A stretch of 64,000 nt of DNA from NCBI RefSeq assembly GCF_021531715.1, contig NZ_JAFBIT010000001.1:1178001-1242000 (forward strand). Reading direction: 5' to 3'. The translations under genes were made by a program, and so were the position numbers. Below, piece by piece: positions 40,322-51,591 of the stretch. This DNA comes from Anaeromassilibacillus senegalensis (lineage in GTDB: Bacteria; Bacillota; Clostridia; Oscillospirales; Acutalibacteraceae). The notes beneath the pieces were generated by a model that saw only the letters and a program-made list of their open reading frames with translations, made no database searches and had not been told where the DNA came from. Numbering within the stretch: the stretch's first letter is position 1; each line of letters begins with the position of its first letter.

Positions 40322-41581
40322 TTATTCTTCTGCTGTAACTGCGGAAAGCGGAACGTTGTTGTCGCGTGCGAGACGCGCCGCGTCCTCGTATTCGAGCTTT
40401 CTCTTTTCGACGCCGTAACCGGAGGCCGTTTTACACCGCGCTTCGCCGTAGGGCGTCTGCACCGTCTCAACGGCGCGATCCAGCACATAGCGCTCGCAGA
40501 CCTTTTTCCGTACGCCGAGCGTCGTCGTGTGGCGGAAGATCAGCGCAGCCATTTCGTCCGCCTGCTCCGCCGTGCAGATGCAGGAAAACAGGTACCCCGG
40601 GCGGCCCTTTTTCATGAAGATCGGCGTGGTGAACACGTCGCGCGCACCGGCGCGAAACAGCTCCTCCGCGGCAAAGGCGAGCGCCTCGCCGGTCATGTCG
40701 TCCAAGTTGCAGTCAAGCTCCACGATTGTATCCGTTTTCGGGCGTTCGACTGTTTCGCCCCAGAACGCGCGCACACAGTTCGCGCGCGGAAAATCCTTTT
40801 TGCCCATACCGTAGCCGATCTTTTCCACCGCCATCTCCGGCATCGGGGAAAACTCCGCCGCAAAATACTTGAGCAGTGCCGCGCCGGTCGGCGTGCAGAG
40901 CTCGCCCTGGATCTCACCGCCGTACGTCGGTACACCGCGCAGGATATACGCCGTGGCTGGCGCCGGGACAGGCAGCACACCGTGTGCACAATGCACGTGG
41001 CCGCTGCCGACGTGCACCGGCGACGCGACGATGCGCTCGGGCTTCAGCATATCGAGCAGCAGGCAGACGCCGACGATGTCCGCAACCGCGTCCAGCGTAC
41101 CGACCTCATGGAAGTGGATCTGCTCCACCGGTACGCCATGCGCATGGGATTCCGCTTCGGCAATCTGCGCATAGACGGCGCGCGCGTTTTCTTTTACGTT
41201 CTGCGGCAACTCGAGCGCTGCAAGCCGCGCCGTGATATCCGCCATACTGCTGTGGCTGTGATGGTGATGATGGTGCTCATGGTGGTGGTCGTGATCATGC
41301 TCGTGGTGGTCGTGCTCGTGATGATGGTCGTGGTCATGATGATAGTCGTGATGATCATGAGCATCATGGCTCTCTTCTTCCTCGCCGTTCACCGTGACGC
41401 GCATATGTGTGCCTCCGATGCCGCATTTGGTCATCGGTTCACGCGCCACCGTCACGCCCGGCAGACCGAGGCTGTTCATTTTCTCCAGAAACCGCTCCGG
41501 CTCCGGCAGAAGCTCAAGCAGCGCCGCCATGAGCATATCGCCCGCAGCGCCCATGGTGCATTCGAGATAAAGTGTTTCCAT
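40322..41581 (-). CDS. larC: Nickel-pincer cofactor biosynthesis protein LarC
   Basis: 419 residues from ATG 41581, with GGAAAGGAAG upstream. LarC is the nickel insertase that completes the cofactor of lactate racemase LarA. N-terminal signature ECTMGAAGDMLMAAL, then a histidine run at about residues 75-115 (dozens of His/Asp/Glu, a nickel store or delivery segment), FHEVGTLDAVADIVG, GVLPVPAPATAYIL, ELCTPTGAALLKY, and the LarC2 part from about residue 270 (ELDCNLDDMTGEALAFA, RPGYLFSCIC). In Lactobacillus larC is split by a programmed frameshift; here it is one uninterrupted frame. No larA, larB or larE is in the window. Confidence 0.93.
   Translation of the reverse strand: METLYLECTMGAAGDMLMAALLELLPEPERFLEKMNSLGLPGVTVAREPMTKCGIGGTHMRVTVNGEEEESHDAHDHHDYHHDHDHHHEHDHHEHDHDHHHEHHHHHHSHSSMADITARLAALELPQNVKENARAVYAQIAEAESHAHGVPVEQIHFHEVGTLDAVADIVGVCLLLDMLKPERIVASPVHVGSGHVHCAHGVLPVPAPATAYILRGVPTYGGEIQGELCTPTGAALLKYFAAEFSPMPEMAVEKIGYGMGKKDFPRANCVRAFWGETVERPKTDTIVELDCNLDDMTGEALAFAAEELFRAGARDVFTTPIFMKKGRPGYLFSCICTAEQADEMAALIFRHTTTLGVRKKVCERYVLDRAVETVQTPYGEARCKTASGYGVEKRKLEYEDAARLARDNNVPLSAVTAEE
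41255..41370. repeat. Low-complexity His-codon tract inside larC
   Basis: The minus-strand codons are almost all CAC/CAT/GAC/GAG, giving a near-repetitive DNA tract. Such tracts can vary in length between strains. Confidence 0.8.
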
Positions 41582-41679
41582 TGTGTTTGCTTCCTTTCCG
41601 AATTTTCGGCTTCTGCCGCTTCCCACGCCTTCATGGCGCCTTTTAAAATCAACTCTAGCACAAACGGCGCGAAAAGTCA

Positions 41680-41720
41680 AAAAAACTTGCATGAGACCCG
41701 TGCCCCATGCAAGTTTTTTA
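41680..41720 (-). terminator. Terminator of the Gfo/Idh/MocA gene
   Basis: AAAAACTTGCATG and CATGCAAGTTTTT form a perfect stem; T runs exist on both strands. Confidence 0.85.
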
Positions 41721-45562: not shown

Positions 45563-45574
45563 TCCTTAAACAAA

Positions 45575-45605
45575 GGCTGTCGGGATTCCCGGCAGTCTTT
45601 TCTCT
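45575..45605 (+). terminator. Intrinsic terminator after the ligase-like gene
   Basis: GGCTGTCGGG pairs with CCCGGCAGTC (G-T pairs included), followed by TTTTCT. Confidence 0.75.
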
Positions 45606-45698: not shown

Positions 45699-47105
45699 AT
45701 GGGCGGATTTTTTGGCGCGACATCGAAGGACGATTGCGTTTTTGACCTGTTTTTCGGCATCGATTATCACTCCCACCTCGGCACACGCCGTGCGGGCATG
45801 GCGGTTTACAGCGAGGAAACCGGCTTTGACCGGGCCATTCACAACATTGAGAACGCTCCGTTCCGGACGAAATTCACATCGGAATCCCAGACGATGCACG
45901 GCACCATGGGTATTGGCTGCATTTCCGATTATGAGGCGCAGCCGATCCTGATGCGCTCTCACCACGGCACCTTCGCTATCACCACGATCGGCAAAATCAA
46001 CAACGCCGATGAAATCGTGGAAAACATCATTCAGAAGGGCACGCATTTCTTTGAAATGCAGAACGGAGAGATCAACCCCACGGAGCTGGTCGCCGCCATC
46101 ATCAACCAGAAGGAAAACTTTATTGAAGGCATCCGCTACGCGCAGGAGATCATCGAGGGCTCGCTGAGCATGCTGATTCTCACGCCGCGCGGCATTTACG
46201 CAGCGCGCGACAAGCTGGGCCGCACGCCGATTGTTATCGGCAAAAAGGCGGACGGCTACTGCCTGAGCTTTGAGAGCTTCGCCTATCTGAATCTCGGCTA
46301 TCAGGATTACCGCGAGCTCGGCCCGGGCGAGGTCGTTGTCGTCGATACCGACAGCGTGCGCACGCTCGCTGAGCCGGGCAAAAAGATGAAGATCTGCACC
46401 TTCCTGTGGATCTACTACGGATATCCGTCCTCGAGCTATGAGGGCGTCTGTGTCGAGAACATGCGCTACAACTGCGGGCGCGCGCTCGCCCGCCGCGATA
46501 CCGTGAAGCCGGACATCGTCGCCGGCGTGCCGGATTCCGGCATCGCCCACGCCATCGGCTACGCAAATGAATCGGGTATTCCGTTCTCGCGCCCGTTCGT
46601 CAAGTACACCCCGACATGGCCGCGCTCCTTCATGCCGACGCACCAGAGCAAGCGCGACCTGATTGCCAAGATGAAGCTGATCCCGGTGCATGACCTGATC
46701 GACGGCAAGAGCCTGCTTTTGATCGACGACTCCATCGTGCGCGGCACGCAGCTGCGCGAGACGACGGAATTCCTCTACGCAAGCGGTGCGAAAGAAGTGC
46801 ACATCCGCCCTGCCTGCCCGCCGCTGCTCTTCGGCTGCAAATATCTGAACTTCTCCCGCTCCACCTCGGAGATGGAACTGATCACGCGCCGCGTGATCCG
46901 CGAGCTGGAGGGCTGCGATCCGGACTACGAGACGCTCTGTGAATACGCCGATCCGGACGGCGAGAAGTATCAAAAGATGGTAGATAAGATCTGCGAGGAG
47001 CTGCACTTCACCTCCCTGCGCTACCACCGTCTCGACGACATGATCGAATCCGTCGGCATCGATGCGGACAAGCTCTGCACCTACTGCTGGAACGGTAAGG
47101 AATAA
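45699..47105 (+). CDS. Amidophosphoribosyltransferase paralogue lacking the N-terminal catalytic cysteine
   Basis: 468 residues. The overall build is that of PurF: an Ntn-type glutaminase domain (about 1-235, GIDYHSHLGTRRAGMAVY, GCISDYEAQPILMRSHHG) and a phosphoribosyltransferase domain with the PRPP loop LLIDDSIVRGTQL. True PurF begins Met-Cys-Gly, and the Cys becomes the nucleophile after Met removal; here the start is Met-Gly-Gly-Phe-Phe-Gly, so the nucleophile is absent. Cysteines in the positions of the Bacillus-type Fe-S cluster appear kept (ICTFLWIYYG, and CTYCWNGKE at the end). It may use free ammonia, or have a regulatory role beside a normal PurF elsewhere. AAGGAAG-type site upstream. 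The start cannot be moved to give a Cys. Confidence 0.85.
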   Translation: MGGFFGATSKDDCVFDLFFGIDYHSHLGTRRAGMAVYSEETGFDRAIHNIENAPFRTKFTSESQTMHGTMGIGCISDYEAQPILMRSHHGTFAITTIGKINNADEIVENIIQKGTHFFEMQNGEINPTELVAAIINQKENFIEGIRYAQEIIEGSLSMLILTPRGIYAARDKLGRTPIVIGKKADGYCLSFESFAYLNLGYQDYRELGPGEVVVVDTDSVRTLAEPGKKMKICTFLWIYYGYPSSSYEGVCVENMRYNCGRALARRDTVKPDIVAGVPDSGIAHAIGYANESGIPFSRPFVKYTPTWPRSFMPTHQSKRDLIAKMKLIPVHDLIDGKSLLLIDDSIVRGTQLRETTEFLYASGAKEVHIRPACPPLLFGCKYLNFSRSTSEMELITRRVIRELEGCDPDYETLCEYADPDGEKYQKMVDKICEELHFTSLRYHRLDDMIESVGIDADKLCTYCWNGKE

Positions 47106-47121
47106 GCCGGAAAGGAACGAA

Positions 47122-47607
47122 ATGGCAGAAATCATTCTGATCTGCGGCAAAATCTGCAGCGGAAAAGGCTGGTATACCCGGCAGCTCCAGCGCGAAAGGA
47201 ACGCCGTCGTGCTCTCCTGCGACGAAGTGGAGAACGACCTGTTCCACCACGAGCTCGGCGACCGCCATGACATAGTTGCGGCGGACATCCGACAGTATCT
47301 TTTGAAAAAAGCCGTCGAGATCGTGCGCGCGGGCTGCACCGTCATCCTCGACTGGGGCTTTTGGAGCCGCACCGACCGCGAAAGCGTCTCCGCTTGCTGC
47401 AAAGCCGCTGAAGTCTCTTATGAATGGCACTATGTCGAAATTTCAGACGAGGACTGGAAGCGCAATATCGAATCGCGCAACCGCGCCGTCGCCGCCGGTG
47501 AGACGACCGACTACGCCGTCGACAGCGGTCTGCTCGAAAAGCTCCAAGCGCTCTTTGAGCCGCCGACGCGCGACGAGATCGACGTGTGGTTTGTAAATCA
47601 AAGATAA
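47122..47607 (+). CDS. P-loop kinase of the AAA_33/zeta-like family
   Basis: 161 residues from ATG 47122, with GGAAAGGAA upstream and 16 bp after the PurF-like gene. Walker A is GKICSGKGWYT at residues 9-19, followed by VVLSCDEVENDLF (an acidic residue where phosphotransferases place the base), TVILDWGFWSRTD as a Walker-B-like strand, and the lid RNIESRNRAVAAGETTDYAVD in pieces (NIESRNRAV). Such proteins phosphorylate small molecules, including antibiotics or nucleotide sugars, or act as polynucleotide kinases. No antitoxin-like gene is adjacent, so a zeta toxin is unlikely. Confidence 0.82.
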   Translation: MAEIILICGKICSGKGWYTRQLQRERNAVVLSCDEVENDLFHHELGDRHDIVAADIRQYLLKKAVEIVRAGCTVILDWGFWSRTDRESVSACCKAAEVSYEWHYVEISDEDWKRNIESRNRAVAAGETTDYAVDSGLLEKLQALFEPPTRDEIDVWFVNQR

Positions 47608-47611
47608 ATAC

Positions 47612-47651
47612 AAAAATCGGAACCGGGCAAATCGCCTTGGTTCCGATTTTT
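47612..47651. terminator. Bidirectional terminator between the kinase and metH
   Basis: AAAAATCGGAACC and GGTTCCGATTTTT form a perfect 13-base stem with T runs on both strands; the two genes converge on it. Confidence 0.9.
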
Positions 47652-47658
47652 GCTGTCT

Positions 47659-50079
47659 TTATTCGTTTTCCGCGAACAGCCGCTCGGCGTAGCGCACGCT
47701 GCCCATCGCGTCCTTCGAGTAGAAGTCCGCACCGATGGCTTCGGCGTATTCGGGGTTCAGCACCGCGCCGCCAACCATCACCTTGCAGTCATGTGCGCGT
47801 CGAAGCTGGCGGATCGTCTCCTCCATGCTAGGCACCGTCGTTGTCATCAGTGCTGATAGCCCGACGAGCCGAATATCATGCTCAATGGCCGTCTGCACGA
47901 TCGTCTCCGGCGGCACATCTTTACCGAGATCGATCACGTCAAAGCCGTAATTCTCAAGCAGCACCTTGACGATGTTCTTACCGATATCGTGGATGTCGCC
48001 CTTGACCGTCGCGAGGATGATACTGCCTTTTTTCTTTTCCTGAATACCCTTATCGGCGAGATTGGCCTTGATGCGGTTGAAAGCCTCCTTTGCCGCGTCT
48101 GCGCTCATCAGAAGCTGCGGCAGAAACACCGTGCCGCGCTCAAAACCCTGCCCCACCTCATCGAGCGCCGGAATCAGCATGCCGTTGATGATATCGAGCG
48201 GCGGGATATCTTTCAGCGCCGCATCGGTCAGCGTACCCGCCTGCTCGCAGAGACCTTTGACGATCGCGCGGTGGAGCGTCATGTCCTGCACGGGAGCCGC
48301 CTGCTGTACGGCGCCTGTTCGGACATCCGGCGCGGCGGCCGTGTTCGCATACGCCTCAATATACGCCTTACAACCGCTGTCGAGACCCGCCAGCGCACAG
48401 AACGCGCGGTATGATTTCATCAGCTCGTCGCTGAGCGGATTCACGATGCCGGCGCTCAGACCGCGCTGCATCGCCATCGTGAAGAACGTGCTCGTCAGGA
48501 TCTCGCGGCGCGGCAGACCGAAGGAAATATTCGAGACGCCGAGCACCGTGTGCACACCGAGCTTATGGCGGATCGTATCGAGCGCATCGAGTGTGATTTC
48601 CGCATTCTGCGCGCCGGTGCTCACGGTCATCGTGAGCGTATCAACGAGAATATCGCGGCGGTCGATGCCGTAGCTTTCCGCCGTGCGGATGATCTTCTCC
48701 GCAATCTTCACGCGCGCCTCGGCGGTATCGGGAATGCCGTTTTCATCGAGCGTCAGAGCAACGACCGCCGCGCCGTACTTCTTTACAAGCGGCAGAACCG
48801 TATGCAGGGACTCCTCCTTGCCGTTCACCGAATTGACGAGCGGCTTGCCGTTATAGAGTCGGAGCGCGCGCTCCATGGCCTCAAGGTTCGAGGTGTCGAT
48901 CTGCAGCGGCGCAGTCGTGACGCTCTGCAGCAGTGTAACCGCTTCTTCCATCACGGCTGGTTCGTCAATGTCCGGAAGGCCGACGTTTACATCAAGAATA
49001 TCCGCGCCATGTTCCGTTTGGTTAAGCGCCTCGTCGCAGAGATAATCGAAATCGCCGCTGCGCAGGGCCTGCTTGAGCCGCGGCTTGCCGGTGGGGTTGA
49101 TGCGCTCGCCGATCAAAATTGGGCGGTCGCCGAACGTGACAGTACACCTGTAAGAAGAAACAACAGTTTTCGCAGGAACATCCCGCTTCGGTACCGGCTT
49201 ACCGCGGATTGCCTCGCTCAGCAAGCGAATATGCGCCGGGGTCGTGCCGCAGCAGCCGCCGAGCAGCGCCGCGCCGCTTTCCGCAAAGCGCACCGCGTAA
49301 TCGCAGAATTCCTCCGGCGCGACCGGATATGACGTTTTGCCGTCTACCGTAACTGGCAGACCGGCATTCGGATTGATGCAGACGGGCAGCGCCGTGCTCT
49401 GCAGCAGGCGCGGCACGAACTGTTCCATCTGCTCCGGACCGAGGCTGCAGTTCATGCCGACAGCCGCCGCACCGAGGCTCTCCGCGAGCGTCACCGCCGC
49501 CTCGATGTCGCCGCCCATCAAAAGGCGGCCGCTTTCATCAAATGTATACGTCACGACAATGGGCAGGTCGCAGTTTTCCTTCGCCGCCAGCATGGCTGCC
49601 TTCACCTCATACGTGTCGCTCATCGTCTCGATGAGGATGAGGTCGGCGTTGTCGCGCCCGGCGAGGATCATCTCGCGGAACAGATCATAGGCGTCCTCGA
49701 AGGAAAGGTCTCCATACGGCTCGAGCAGCTTGCCGGAAGGACCGATGTCGAGCGCGACGGCCGTTCTGCCCGCACTTGCCTTGCGCGCGATGCTGAGCGC
49801 GGCGGAAATGACCTCCTCCACCGTGTGTCCCGTCTTTTTCAGCTTCAAGCGGTTCGCGCCGAAGGTGTTGGATTTCAGAATATCGCAGCCCGCGTCCGCA
49901 TAGGCCGTTTGGATTTCAAGAATCGCCTCGGGATGGCTGAGATTCCACAGCTCGGGCAGCTCGCCACCCCTCAGACCGCGAGCCTGCAGAAGCGTGCCCA
50001 TACCGCCGTCAAAGATCACGGCGGATTTTCCGAATTTTTCGATAACAGGATGCAAATTCAGGACTTCCTTTCTTTTCAT
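47659..50079 (-). CDS. metH: Cobalamin-dependent methionine synthase lacking the reactivation domain
   Basis: 806 residues from ATG 50079, which overlaps the stop of the reactivation gene (ATGA). Modules: homocysteine-binding barrel (about 1-300, FDGGMGTLLQARGL, zinc Cys pair GGCCGTTP), pterin-binding barrel (about 320-580, LIGERINPTGKP), cobalamin cap (about 600-680) and the B12 domain with the axial His in VKGDIHDIGKNIV. The C-terminal AdoMet-dependent reactivation domain of E. coli MetH is missing; the previous gene supplies it. It methylates homocysteine using methyl-tetrahydrofolate made by MetF, the first gene of the operon. Confidence 0.95.
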   Translation of the reverse strand: MKRKEVLNLHPVIEKFGKSAVIFDGGMGTLLQARGLRGGELPELWNLSHPEAILEIQTAYADAGCDILKSNTFGANRLKLKKTGHTVEEVISAALSIARKASAGRTAVALDIGPSGKLLEPYGDLSFEDAYDLFREMILAGRDNADLILIETMSDTYEVKAAMLAAKENCDLPIVVTYTFDESGRLLMGGDIEAAVTLAESLGAAAVGMNCSLGPEQMEQFVPRLLQSTALPVCINPNAGLPVTVDGKTSYPVAPEEFCDYAVRFAESGAALLGGCCGTTPAHIRLLSEAIRGKPVPKRDVPAKTVVSSYRCTVTFGDRPILIGERINPTGKPRLKQALRSGDFDYLCDEALNQTEHGADILDVNVGLPDIDEPAVMEEAVTLLQSVTTAPLQIDTSNLEAMERALRLYNGKPLVNSVNGKEESLHTVLPLVKKYGAAVVALTLDENGIPDTAEARVKIAEKIIRTAESYGIDRRDILVDTLTMTVSTGAQNAEITLDALDTIRHKLGVHTVLGVSNISFGLPRREILTSTFFTMAMQRGLSAGIVNPLSDELMKSYRAFCALAGLDSGCKAYIEAYANTAAAPDVRTGAVQQAAPVQDMTLHRAIVKGLCEQAGTLTDAALKDIPPLDIINGMLIPALDEVGQGFERGTVFLPQLLMSADAAKEAFNRIKANLADKGIQEKKKGSIILATVKGDIHDIGKNIVKVLLENYGFDVIDLGKDVPPETIVQTAIEHDIRLVGLSALMTTTVPSMEETIRQLRRAHDCKVMVGGAVLNPEYAEAIGADFYSKDAMGSVRYAERLFAENE

Positions 50080-50723
50080 GCTCCGCCGCCCTCGCGGAAG
50101 GCGCAGTCCGTTTTTGTACAGTTCTGGCATCTGCGGTATGTGCAGTCCGCCGTATCCGCCACGCCGATGACCGCCGACACCGATTTGACCGGCGTCATCA
50201 GGAGCGTGTCTGTCAGCGCAACACCGATGCGCTTCTCGCATTCGAGCCGCGCGAAAATTTCCCGCTGGCTCTCAAGCGCAAAATCGCCGTAGCCGGGCGA
50301 AAAGCGCGGGCGCAGATACAGGCCTTCCCGAAGCTCGCGCTCGGCAAGCTCGGCCTGCATTTCGTCGCAGTAGCTCTCAATCAGCGCGCTGCACACCGCG
50401 TTTGCGACCGTGCCGCGCGACATGCTGCGCGCGGCGATCTGCCGTATGCGCCGATCCGCCTGCACGCCGAGCGTCGCCGCAAAAAGATATGCCGCTTTGC
50501 AGCCGCGCAGATGATGCGCGAGCTTCTCACTTTCAATGCGCCAGCCGTCGAGCGTGACCGTATGATCGGTAACCTCAACCGCATAGCGCTTATAGACGCA
50601 CTTTGGTGTCAGAATATGCAGAAAATCTTCGGCAATTTCCTCCGCCGTGCGCACCGTCTCCGCGTCGGCGGGTCTGCCGCGAAAGCCGAGGTACCGGAGC
50701 ACTTCTTTCAGCTTCAATTTCAT
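50076..50723 (-). CDS. Stand-alone methionine synthase reactivation protein
   Basis: 215 residues. It matches the vitamin-B12-dependent methionine synthase activation family: FSPGYGDFALESQREIF corresponds to the AdoMet-binding RxxPGYxxxP-like region (YLRPRFSPGYGDF), and the C-terminus has a four-cysteine cluster (CTYRRCQNCTKTDCAF) that could hold a metal or Fe-S centre. The mid part (GCKAAYLFAATLGVQADRRIRQ) is typical of this clade. It presumably re-methylates oxidised cob(II)alamin of the short MetH encoded next, with which it is translationally coupled. One base separates it from metF. Confidence 0.9.
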   Translation of the reverse strand: MKLKLKEVLRYLGFRGRPADAETVRTAEEIAEDFLHILTPKCVYKRYAVEVTDHTVTLDGWRIESEKLAHHLRGCKAAYLFAATLGVQADRRIRQIAARSMSRGTVANAVCSALIESYCDEMQAELAERELREGLYLRPRFSPGYGDFALESQREIFARLECEKRIGVALTDTLLMTPVKSVSAVIGVADTADCTYRRCQNCTKTDCAFREGGGA

Positions 50724-50724
50724 A

Positions 50725-51591
50725 TCAATCGATGATCTTCGAGAGGTTCGTCATGATGCTGCCCGCGATGTCCGGGCGATTCATCGTGTAAATGTGGATA
50801 TGCGTGACATCGTTTGCAATCAGGTCGATAATCTGCTCGGTTGCATAGGCAATGCCCGCCTGCTTCATCGCCTCGGGGTGATCGGCAAAGCGGTCGACAA
50901 TCGCCCGGAAACGCGGCGGCAGTGCCGTTCCGGAAAGACCGCCGATGCGCTTGATCTGCTTCGCATTCGTGACCGGCATGATGCCCGCGATGACCGGCAC
51001 ATCGACGCCGTGCTTCAAAAGCTTGAACATATAGCTGTACAGGATGTTGTTGTCGAAAAACATCTGCGTCGTCAGAAATTCACAGCCGCTCTTCACTTTC
51101 CGGCAGACGCCCTCGATATCCGCCTCGCTGTTGTACGATTCCGGATGTCCCTCCGGATAGCATGCGCCGCCGATGCAGAAATCTCCCTCGCGGCGGATCG
51201 CCTCGATCAGGTCGCTCGCGTGCGGGAAGATTTCCGGCGCGGTCTGCCCTGCAGGAATATCGCCGCGCAGGGCAAGGATATTCTCGATGCCGCTCGCCTT
51301 GAAATCCGCAATCGAGCGGCGCAGCTTTTCTTCATCCTGTCCCACACAGGTCAGATGCGCCAGCGCCGTGACGCCGCTTGTGAGCACTTCCTCCGCAACA
51401 CGGAGCGTATTGTGTGAATTGCTGCCGCCCGCACCGTAGGTAACACTCATGAACGACGGCTTATAGGCCGCGATTTCGCGGACGATCTGCTGCGTATTCG
51501 CCAGCTCGCTGCCGACCTTCGGCGGGAACAGCTCGCAGGAAACGGTAACCGTTTTCGATTTCAGAATCTCGGATATTTTCATATCAATCAT
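50725..51591 (-). CDS. metF: Methylenetetrahydrofolate reductase
   Basis: 288 residues started at ATG 51591, five bases after AAGGA; a second ATG nine bases later is less well spaced. The flavin-dependent barrel shows VSCELFPPKVG (catalytic Glu), SVTYGAGGSN, AHLTCVGQDEEKL, ILALRGDIPAG and the folate contacts in FLTTQMFFDN. It reduces methylene- to methyl-tetrahydrofolate, supplying MetH. First gene of the met operon, with a clear promoter and no riboswitch visible in its 50-base leader. Confidence 0.95.
   Translation of the reverse strand: MIDMKISEILKSKTVTVSCELFPPKVGSELANTQQIVREIAAYKPSFMSVTYGAGGSNSHNTLRVAEEVLTSGVTALAHLTCVGQDEEKLRRSIADFKASGIENILALRGDIPAGQTAPEIFPHASDLIEAIRREGDFCIGGACYPEGHPESYNSEADIEGVCRKVKSGCEFLTTQMFFDNNILYSYMFKLLKHGVDVPVIAGIMPVTNAKQIKRIGGLSGTALPPRFRAIVDRFADHPEAMKQAGIAYATEQIIDLIANDVTHIHIYTMNRPDIAGSIMTNLSKIID

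Follow-up and report, generated by a model that had tools for sequence, protein, structure and literature searches.

A PurF-type protein family that has lost its glutamine site and probably uses free ammonia

Genes and features at the locus

We analyzed a 64,000-nucleotide stretch of the Anaeromassilibacillus senegalensis genome (the window), in which an open reading frame (ORF) for a PurF-type protein is followed, 16 bp past its stop codon, by an ORF for a small P-loop kinase (Table 1). An earlier note on this DNA had pointed out that the PurF-like protein begins with Met-Gly-Gly where Met-Cys-Gly is expected. It had proposed that the glutaminase half cannot work by the normal route, that the PRPP loop and the Fe-S cysteines are kept, that the kinase is linked to the protein, and that the function might be ammonia-dependent, regulatory or an alternative phosphoribosyl function. 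It had also suggested looking for an upstream start that gives a Cys, for a canonical purF elsewhere in the genome, and for the phylogenetic position of Met-Gly-Gly homologues.

Table 1. Features of the locus, with positions in the window
Feature	Position	Strand	Evidence
Glutaminase-dead PurF-type protein ("MGG-PurF"), 468 aa	45699..47105	+	ORF; TIGR01134 199.8 bits; 1ao0 nearest solved structure
Met-Gly-Gly start where the Met-Cys-Gly nucleophile is expected	45699..45707	+	Cys at position 2 in 0/133 family members
PRPP-binding loop DDSIVRGT, residues 343-350	46725..46748	+	D366, D367, R371, G372 and T373 (mature E. coli numbering) kept in 133/133
Cys233, first Fe-S-aligned cysteine	46395..46397	+	Cys in 1.00 of canonical and of family rows
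Cys380, second Fe-S-aligned cysteine	46836..46838	+	Cys fraction 0.98 (canonical rows), 1.00 (family rows)
Cys460 and Cys463, third and fourth Fe-S-aligned cysteines	47076..47087	+	Cys in 0.98/0.98 of canonical and 1.00/0.99 of family rows
Small P-loop kinase, AAA_33, 161 aa	47122..47607	+	PF13671 61.3 bits; not a conserved partner
Terminator-like stem 5' of both genes	45572..45600	+	13 pairs, T-rich tail; weak
Terminator-like stem 3' of the kinase gene	47611..47652	+	17 pairs, T-rich tail; weak

The terminator-like stems are weakly supported, as 3 such sites were found against a mean of 2.7 in shuffled sequence. At the Rfam gathering score there is no riboswitch at the window gene, and neither the PurF-like protein nor the kinase matched a defence family. 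On the minus strand, positions 47659-51591 hold an apparent split methionine synthase with three consecutive ORFs, one MetH-like (860 aa), a separate one possibly for the activation domain (215 aa) and one MetF-like (names assigned by eye). Also on the minus strand, a LarC-like ORF at positions 40322-41692 (again named by eye) contains a long stretch rich in His and Asp that is likely metal-binding.

The window protein begins MGGFFG. Between the upstream stop codon and the ATG there are nine sense codons (FSAKEDQDT), none of which encodes Cys, so an upstream start cannot expose one, and we ruled out a cryptic Cys of this kind. With the NCBIfam purF profile TIGR01134, whose cut-off is 350 bits, the protein scores too low to be called an equivalog of PurF, and Pfam reports GATase_7 together with a sub-threshold match to Pribosyltran. 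The solved structure nearest in sequence is PurF of Bacillus subtilis (1ao0, E 4.1e-49), with other PurFs also near. A predicted structure of middling quality (pLDDT 76, pTM 0.65), which served for the fold only, was compared with known structures using Foldseek; the top 17 matches were all PurF, with TM scores of approximately 0.55-0.60 (for 1ao0, E 1.5e-34, TM 0.58, rmsd 8.1). The predicted fold is thus that of PurF.

The genome from which the window comes (2.45 Mb, 99.94% complete) has one further PurF, which is canonical (486 bits, EECAVFG start). Its gene adjoins carA, carB and nitrogen-metabolism genes, as far as names read from translations tell, and purD, purM and purL are present elsewhere in the genome. 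The window gene is therefore a second PurF-type gene, located apart from the rest of the purine genes.

Loss of the glutamine site in a separate clade

Relatives of the window protein are commonplace, not a rarity. In a scan of contigs, at least 585 stretches encode one, and the best 80 of these 585 are mostly titled Clostridia. Plasmid-labelled records, some of which carry chromosomal genes, contain relatives with 49-60% identity in Peptoclostridium acidaminophilum, Bacteroides finegoldii, Parabacteroides distasonis and Phocaeicola massiliensis. The TIGR01134 scores of four relatives in named records are 177.8-184.3 bits, all below the cut-off of 350. In three of the named records, the protein is currently called amidophosphoribosyltransferase (twice) or hypothetical protein (once).

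For the alignment, we used 154 places in the fetched loci and a family start pattern that permitted any residue at position 2. The pattern was found in 152 of them, and the other two read MGGFFG by eye. After removal of duplicates and of sequences no longer than 440 residues, 133 distinct members remained, including that of the window. Position 2 is Gly in 122 of these and Ser in 11, and it is never Cys; chance or a sequencing error behind the missing Cys is therefore rejected. All 41 of the 41 canonical rows have Cys, but this reflects how they were chosen, as a C[GA]-type start motif was required of them.

The loss extends well beyond the nucleophile. In the numbering of mature E. coli PurF, all 133 members have Leu in place of R26, a gap at R73 and Y74, and Val, Ile or Thr in place of N101, and D127 is never Asp; we take these five residues to form the glutamine site. 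The 11 members with Ser at position 2 share all of these losses. The protein does not belong among glutamine-dependent PurFs, since the Cys, R73, N101 and D127 and a TIGR01134 score above the cut-off are all lacking, and the proposal that the glutaminase half is unable to work normally gains support.

The catalytic half presents a different picture. Beyond the PRPP-loop residues listed in Table 1, R332, Y258 and L415 are kept in 133 of 133 members, and the protein has a phosphoribosyltransferase domain of the PurF superfamily with its two acidic PRPP-loop residues. All four cysteines that presumably act as Fe-S ligands in proteins of the B. subtilis type are present in the window protein and in the family (0.99-1.00 of family rows and 0.98-1.00 of canonical rows), and these putative ligands, like the PRPP loop, are thus confirmed as kept by both the ORF and the alignment. 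At the same time, some positions in this half have changed throughout the clade, namely T374 to Gln and Trp at 330 (both 133/133) and Y329 to Thr (132/133). R332 corresponds to Arg333 in full-length numbering, which is an ammonia gate in simulations of E. coli PurF, according to an excerpt of PMC12017579.

Mean pairwise identity in the family (600 random pairs) is 0.651 for the N-terminal domain and 0.692 for the catalytic domain; the values for canonical PurF are 0.509 and 0.545, respectively. We therefore rejected a decaying pseudo-enzyme, because both domains are about equally constrained and the listed family matches contain no internal stop. That the N-terminal domain is not decaying hints at a further role for it. 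This domain contains Cys13, Cys74 and Cys188 in 0.94-0.95 of family rows; the first two are absent from canonical PurF and the third is rare there. Members without Cys13, Cys74 or Cys188 include some from genomes in which the family protein is the only PurF-like one, so these cysteines are not all essential.

To place the Met-Gly-Gly homologues, we made a quick tree from rows thinned by identity, which left 62 from the family and 34 canonical PurFs, among them that of E. coli. A single branch with an SH-aLRT of 100 divides the two groups, and the clade is thus separate from canonical PurF.

Genomes in which the family replaces purF

We searched 297 genomes of the same order with at least 90% completeness. 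Tallied from matches better than 1e-100, 166 carriers are listed, including the window's genome; at least two PurF-like matches occur in 104, and the family match stands alone in 62. These 62 sole-copy genomes are spread over 11 families. None has a purF over the cut-off, 60 have a purM over the cut-off, and 60 have purD (59 over the cut-off and one partial and under it). Exceptions are G345, without purM, and G398, without purD; G290 (98% complete; locus L187) keeps a family gene, with Ser at position 2, without purM or purD.

Genomes without any PurF-like protein are very different in this respect: among the 18 examined, purM is present in one and purD in five. Fisher tests of the sole-copy genomes against these give p values of 3e-14 for purM and 2e-9 for purD, which are a guide only, as the genomes are related. 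The 18 come from a set of 21, of which G388, G319 and G330 were left out; two of the 21 had matches at E near 1e-6 to 1e-7 only. In G291, purM and purD are present and no PurF-like protein was found, so a purine route without PurF may exist.

Ten of the 62 sole-copy genomes are listed as 99-100% complete, and assembly gaps are therefore unlikely as a general cause. On a tree built from 27 sole-copy members and 14 of the 15 named two-copy rows, 9 changes are needed to account for the sole-copy label, and branches with good support force at least 8 of these. Three of the sole-copy members on this tree (L091, L096 and L145) are from genomes 69-85% complete. The label is weakly clustered, since shuffling the labels 500 times gave equal clustering in 24 cases, and part of the scatter may reflect assembly gaps.

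A sample of 249 genomes from the phylum contains 16 carriers apart from the window's genome, and every one of them has a purF over the cut-off as well. Fourteen of them are from outside the order, so it is inside this order that we observe sole-copy use. For Bacteroides ihuae, a named control, no TIGR01134 match was found at E 1e-36; Bacteroidota may own a divergent long PurF, and we take this result to show nothing. Replacement of purF where the pathway is kept is thus found in relatives of the window's genome, and not in that genome itself, which has both genes.

Gene neighbourhoods

In 48 of the 62 sole-copy genomes, the family gene lies on the same strand as purM and less than 1 kb upstream of it, although some of these gaps are overestimated, as gene ends were taken from partial profile matches. 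Of 24 genomes with a purF over the cut-off, 11 have this canonical gene in the corresponding position. The family gene is not beside purM in 12 of the 60 sole-copy genomes that have purM, and the same is true of the window gene. In G010, which has no purF over the cut-off, the genes are in the order purE, purC (under its own cut-off), the family gene, purM, purN, an unassigned ORF, AICAR formyltransferase and purD. Two genomes, G009 and G264, have canonical and family genes side by side, next to purM. A ZMP/ZTP riboswitch was found in 8 of 25 loci scanned; in six of them it precedes the family gene by 1.3-2.9 kb on the gene's own strand, and in two it is downstream.

Other neighbours recur more locally. 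In a set of neighbour loci where some genomes appear twice, the carB gene is directly upstream of the family gene in six loci from four genomes (L115, L116, L117, L118, L156 and L157), at a median distance of 53 bp; in one of these it is at L157:4963-8394, and one carB copy was identified by Pfam. In three records, two from Bacteroidota and one from Peptoclostridium acidaminophilum (L202:10001-12800, L203:8001-10787 and L204:6001-8684), the gene immediately after the family gene is pepT. This neighbourhood spans two phyla, and in both Bacteroidota gcvT then follows pepT.

The kinase is a local neighbour of the window gene, not a conserved partner. Pairing was counted in the 142 of 154 loci that have at least 600 bp downstream, and a kinase homologue adjoins the family gene in three of them. 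Two of these are the same place, which leaves two genomes from one genus. Of the link that had been proposed, the close adjacency stands, while the conserved pair does not, and we rejected the idea that family proteins generally work with such a kinase.

A probable ammonia-dependent PRA synthase

The family gene is the only PurF-like gene in many genomes that keep purM and purD, and there it is mostly directly upstream of purM. These observations favor the ammonia-dependent function among the options of the earlier note. Salmonella that lacks PurF is reported to require purines, although apparently not under every growth condition (PMC3485032, in excerpt), so the family protein most likely has to supply PurF function in sole-copy genomes. 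When the Cys of E. coli PurF is replaced, use of glutamine is abolished and use of ammonia is left (excerpt of PMC3261824). An excerpt of PMC12017579 adds that PRPP amidotransferase uses ambient NH3 and that this activity has been implicated in purine synthesis in vivo.

We therefore consider it probable that the family consists of PurF-type phosphoribosylamine (PRA) synthases that have permanently lost the use of glutamine and take ammonia from solution. From the genomes we infer that PRA is most likely made from PRPP without glutamine, and that free ammonia is probably the donor. The C-terminal half would bind PRPP-Mg and join ammonia to it, giving PRA, which PurD would then use, and pyrophosphate. 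The protein would draw on dissolved ammonia instead of releasing it from glutamine itself, and the former glutaminase domain may be retained for a role in structure, gating or sensing. In many Clostridia of the order, the family protein would perform this step as the sole PurF-like protein, mostly encoded beside purM. In the window's genome it would do so as a second copy beside a normal PurF, plausibly when ammonia is plentiful, and our guess is that two-copy genomes divide the labour by ammonia supply.

An extension of this reading is more speculative, and we hold it tentatively, as something that could be true but rather doubtful. The dead domain, with its near-fixed Cys13, Cys74 and Cys188 and its conserved core, might be a new module that admits or senses ammonia. 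In many Clostridia, and perhaps in the Bacteroidota too, free ammonia would then both drive and control purine synthesis at its committed step.

The dead domain is about as conserved as the catalytic one, as if it were an interface, and this would also be expected if a separate glutaminase or another ammonia-releasing enzyme docked on it, so that the PRA synthase would still be fed by glutamine in the cell. The presence of carB directly upstream in four genomes (six loci) is consistent with such a partner. However, an NCBIfam scan of 20 neighbouring ORFs at five loci found no stand-alone glutaminase (three ORFs had no family match), and the PurL among the neighbours carries its own glutaminase part. 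We regard a docked partner as unlikely.

The clade-wide changes near PRPP (Gln for T374, Thr for Y329 and Trp at 330) could mean that the catalytic half has another acceptor. In that case, the protein would transfer the phosphoribosyl group to some other nitrogen nucleophile, either outside purine synthesis or alongside it. Such a role would suit the genes located away from purM (in 12 of 60 sole-copy genomes and in the window), the pepT neighbour in the two Bacteroidota and Peptoclostridium, and the family gene that G290 keeps without purM or purD. However, purD, whose product requires PRA, is present in 60 of the 62 sole-copy genomes, and both gene position and the replacement of purF point to PRA. 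The alternative phosphoribosyl function suggested earlier is weakened by these data, and we think it quite improbable.

We give the lowest probability, a very small one, to a non-catalytic regulator or PRPP sensor of purine synthesis, in which case sole-copy genomes would make PRA by another route, such as from ribose 5-phosphate and ammonia. The lost glutamine site, the adjacent gene types in G009 and G264, the pathway genes of G291 and the PurF-independent growth of Salmonella hinted at in an excerpt of PMC3485032 leave some place for it, but the tested PRPP-loop residues are all invariant and the four cysteines nearly so, the family gene occupies the place beside purM, and 17 of the 18 examined genomes without a PurF-like protein also lack purM.

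Comparison with known systems

Canonical PurF (glutamine PRPP amidotransferase, EC 2.4.2.14; B. subtilis 1ao0, E. coli 1ecf) resembles the family in its two-domain order, its fold, the PRPP loop, Arg332 and the four aligned cysteines, and in the place beside purM that relatives of the window gene occupy. The family differs in having neither the catalytic Cys nor the glutamine-binding residues, in its shorter glutamine loop, in scoring far under the TIGR01134 cut-off, and in forming a separate clade. Carbamoyl-phosphate synthetase I follows the same logic, as it has lost the glutaminase Cys, depends on ammonia and keeps the dead domain. This likeness is drawn by description, and that enzyme differs in having a class I glutaminase and an unrelated synthase.

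The engineered E. coli PurF with Cys changed to Ala or Ser has likewise lost glutamine use, and it keeps ammonia use (PMC3261824, in excerpt). However, it results from one residue change made in the laboratory, whereas the family has lost the whole site in nature and throughout the clade, and its use of ammonia is deduced. A natural PurF paralogue with Ser for Cys, Mlab_0150 of Methanocorpusculum labreanum, is described in an excerpt of the same source, and its authors suspected that it is not a PurF amidotransferase. By that description it is set apart from the family as a recent duplicate in one archaeon, located beside a normal purF. The titles and abstract beginnings listed for work on PurF paralogues, ammonia-dependent PurF and dead glutaminase domains did not mention the clade, which is no proof that it is unpublished.

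Implications

The name amidophosphoribosyltransferase, which is given to copies of the family, implies that glutamine is the nitrogen donor. The family is common in gut bacteria, and our results suggest that purines there are begun directly from free ammonia. If this is true, many anaerobic bacteria would start purine synthesis from free ammonia, inhibitors that are glutamine analogues would miss the first purine step, and metabolic models would carry the wrong nitrogen source. Carbamoyl-phosphate synthetase I, which also gave up glutamine, would then have a natural and repeated counterpart in the family.
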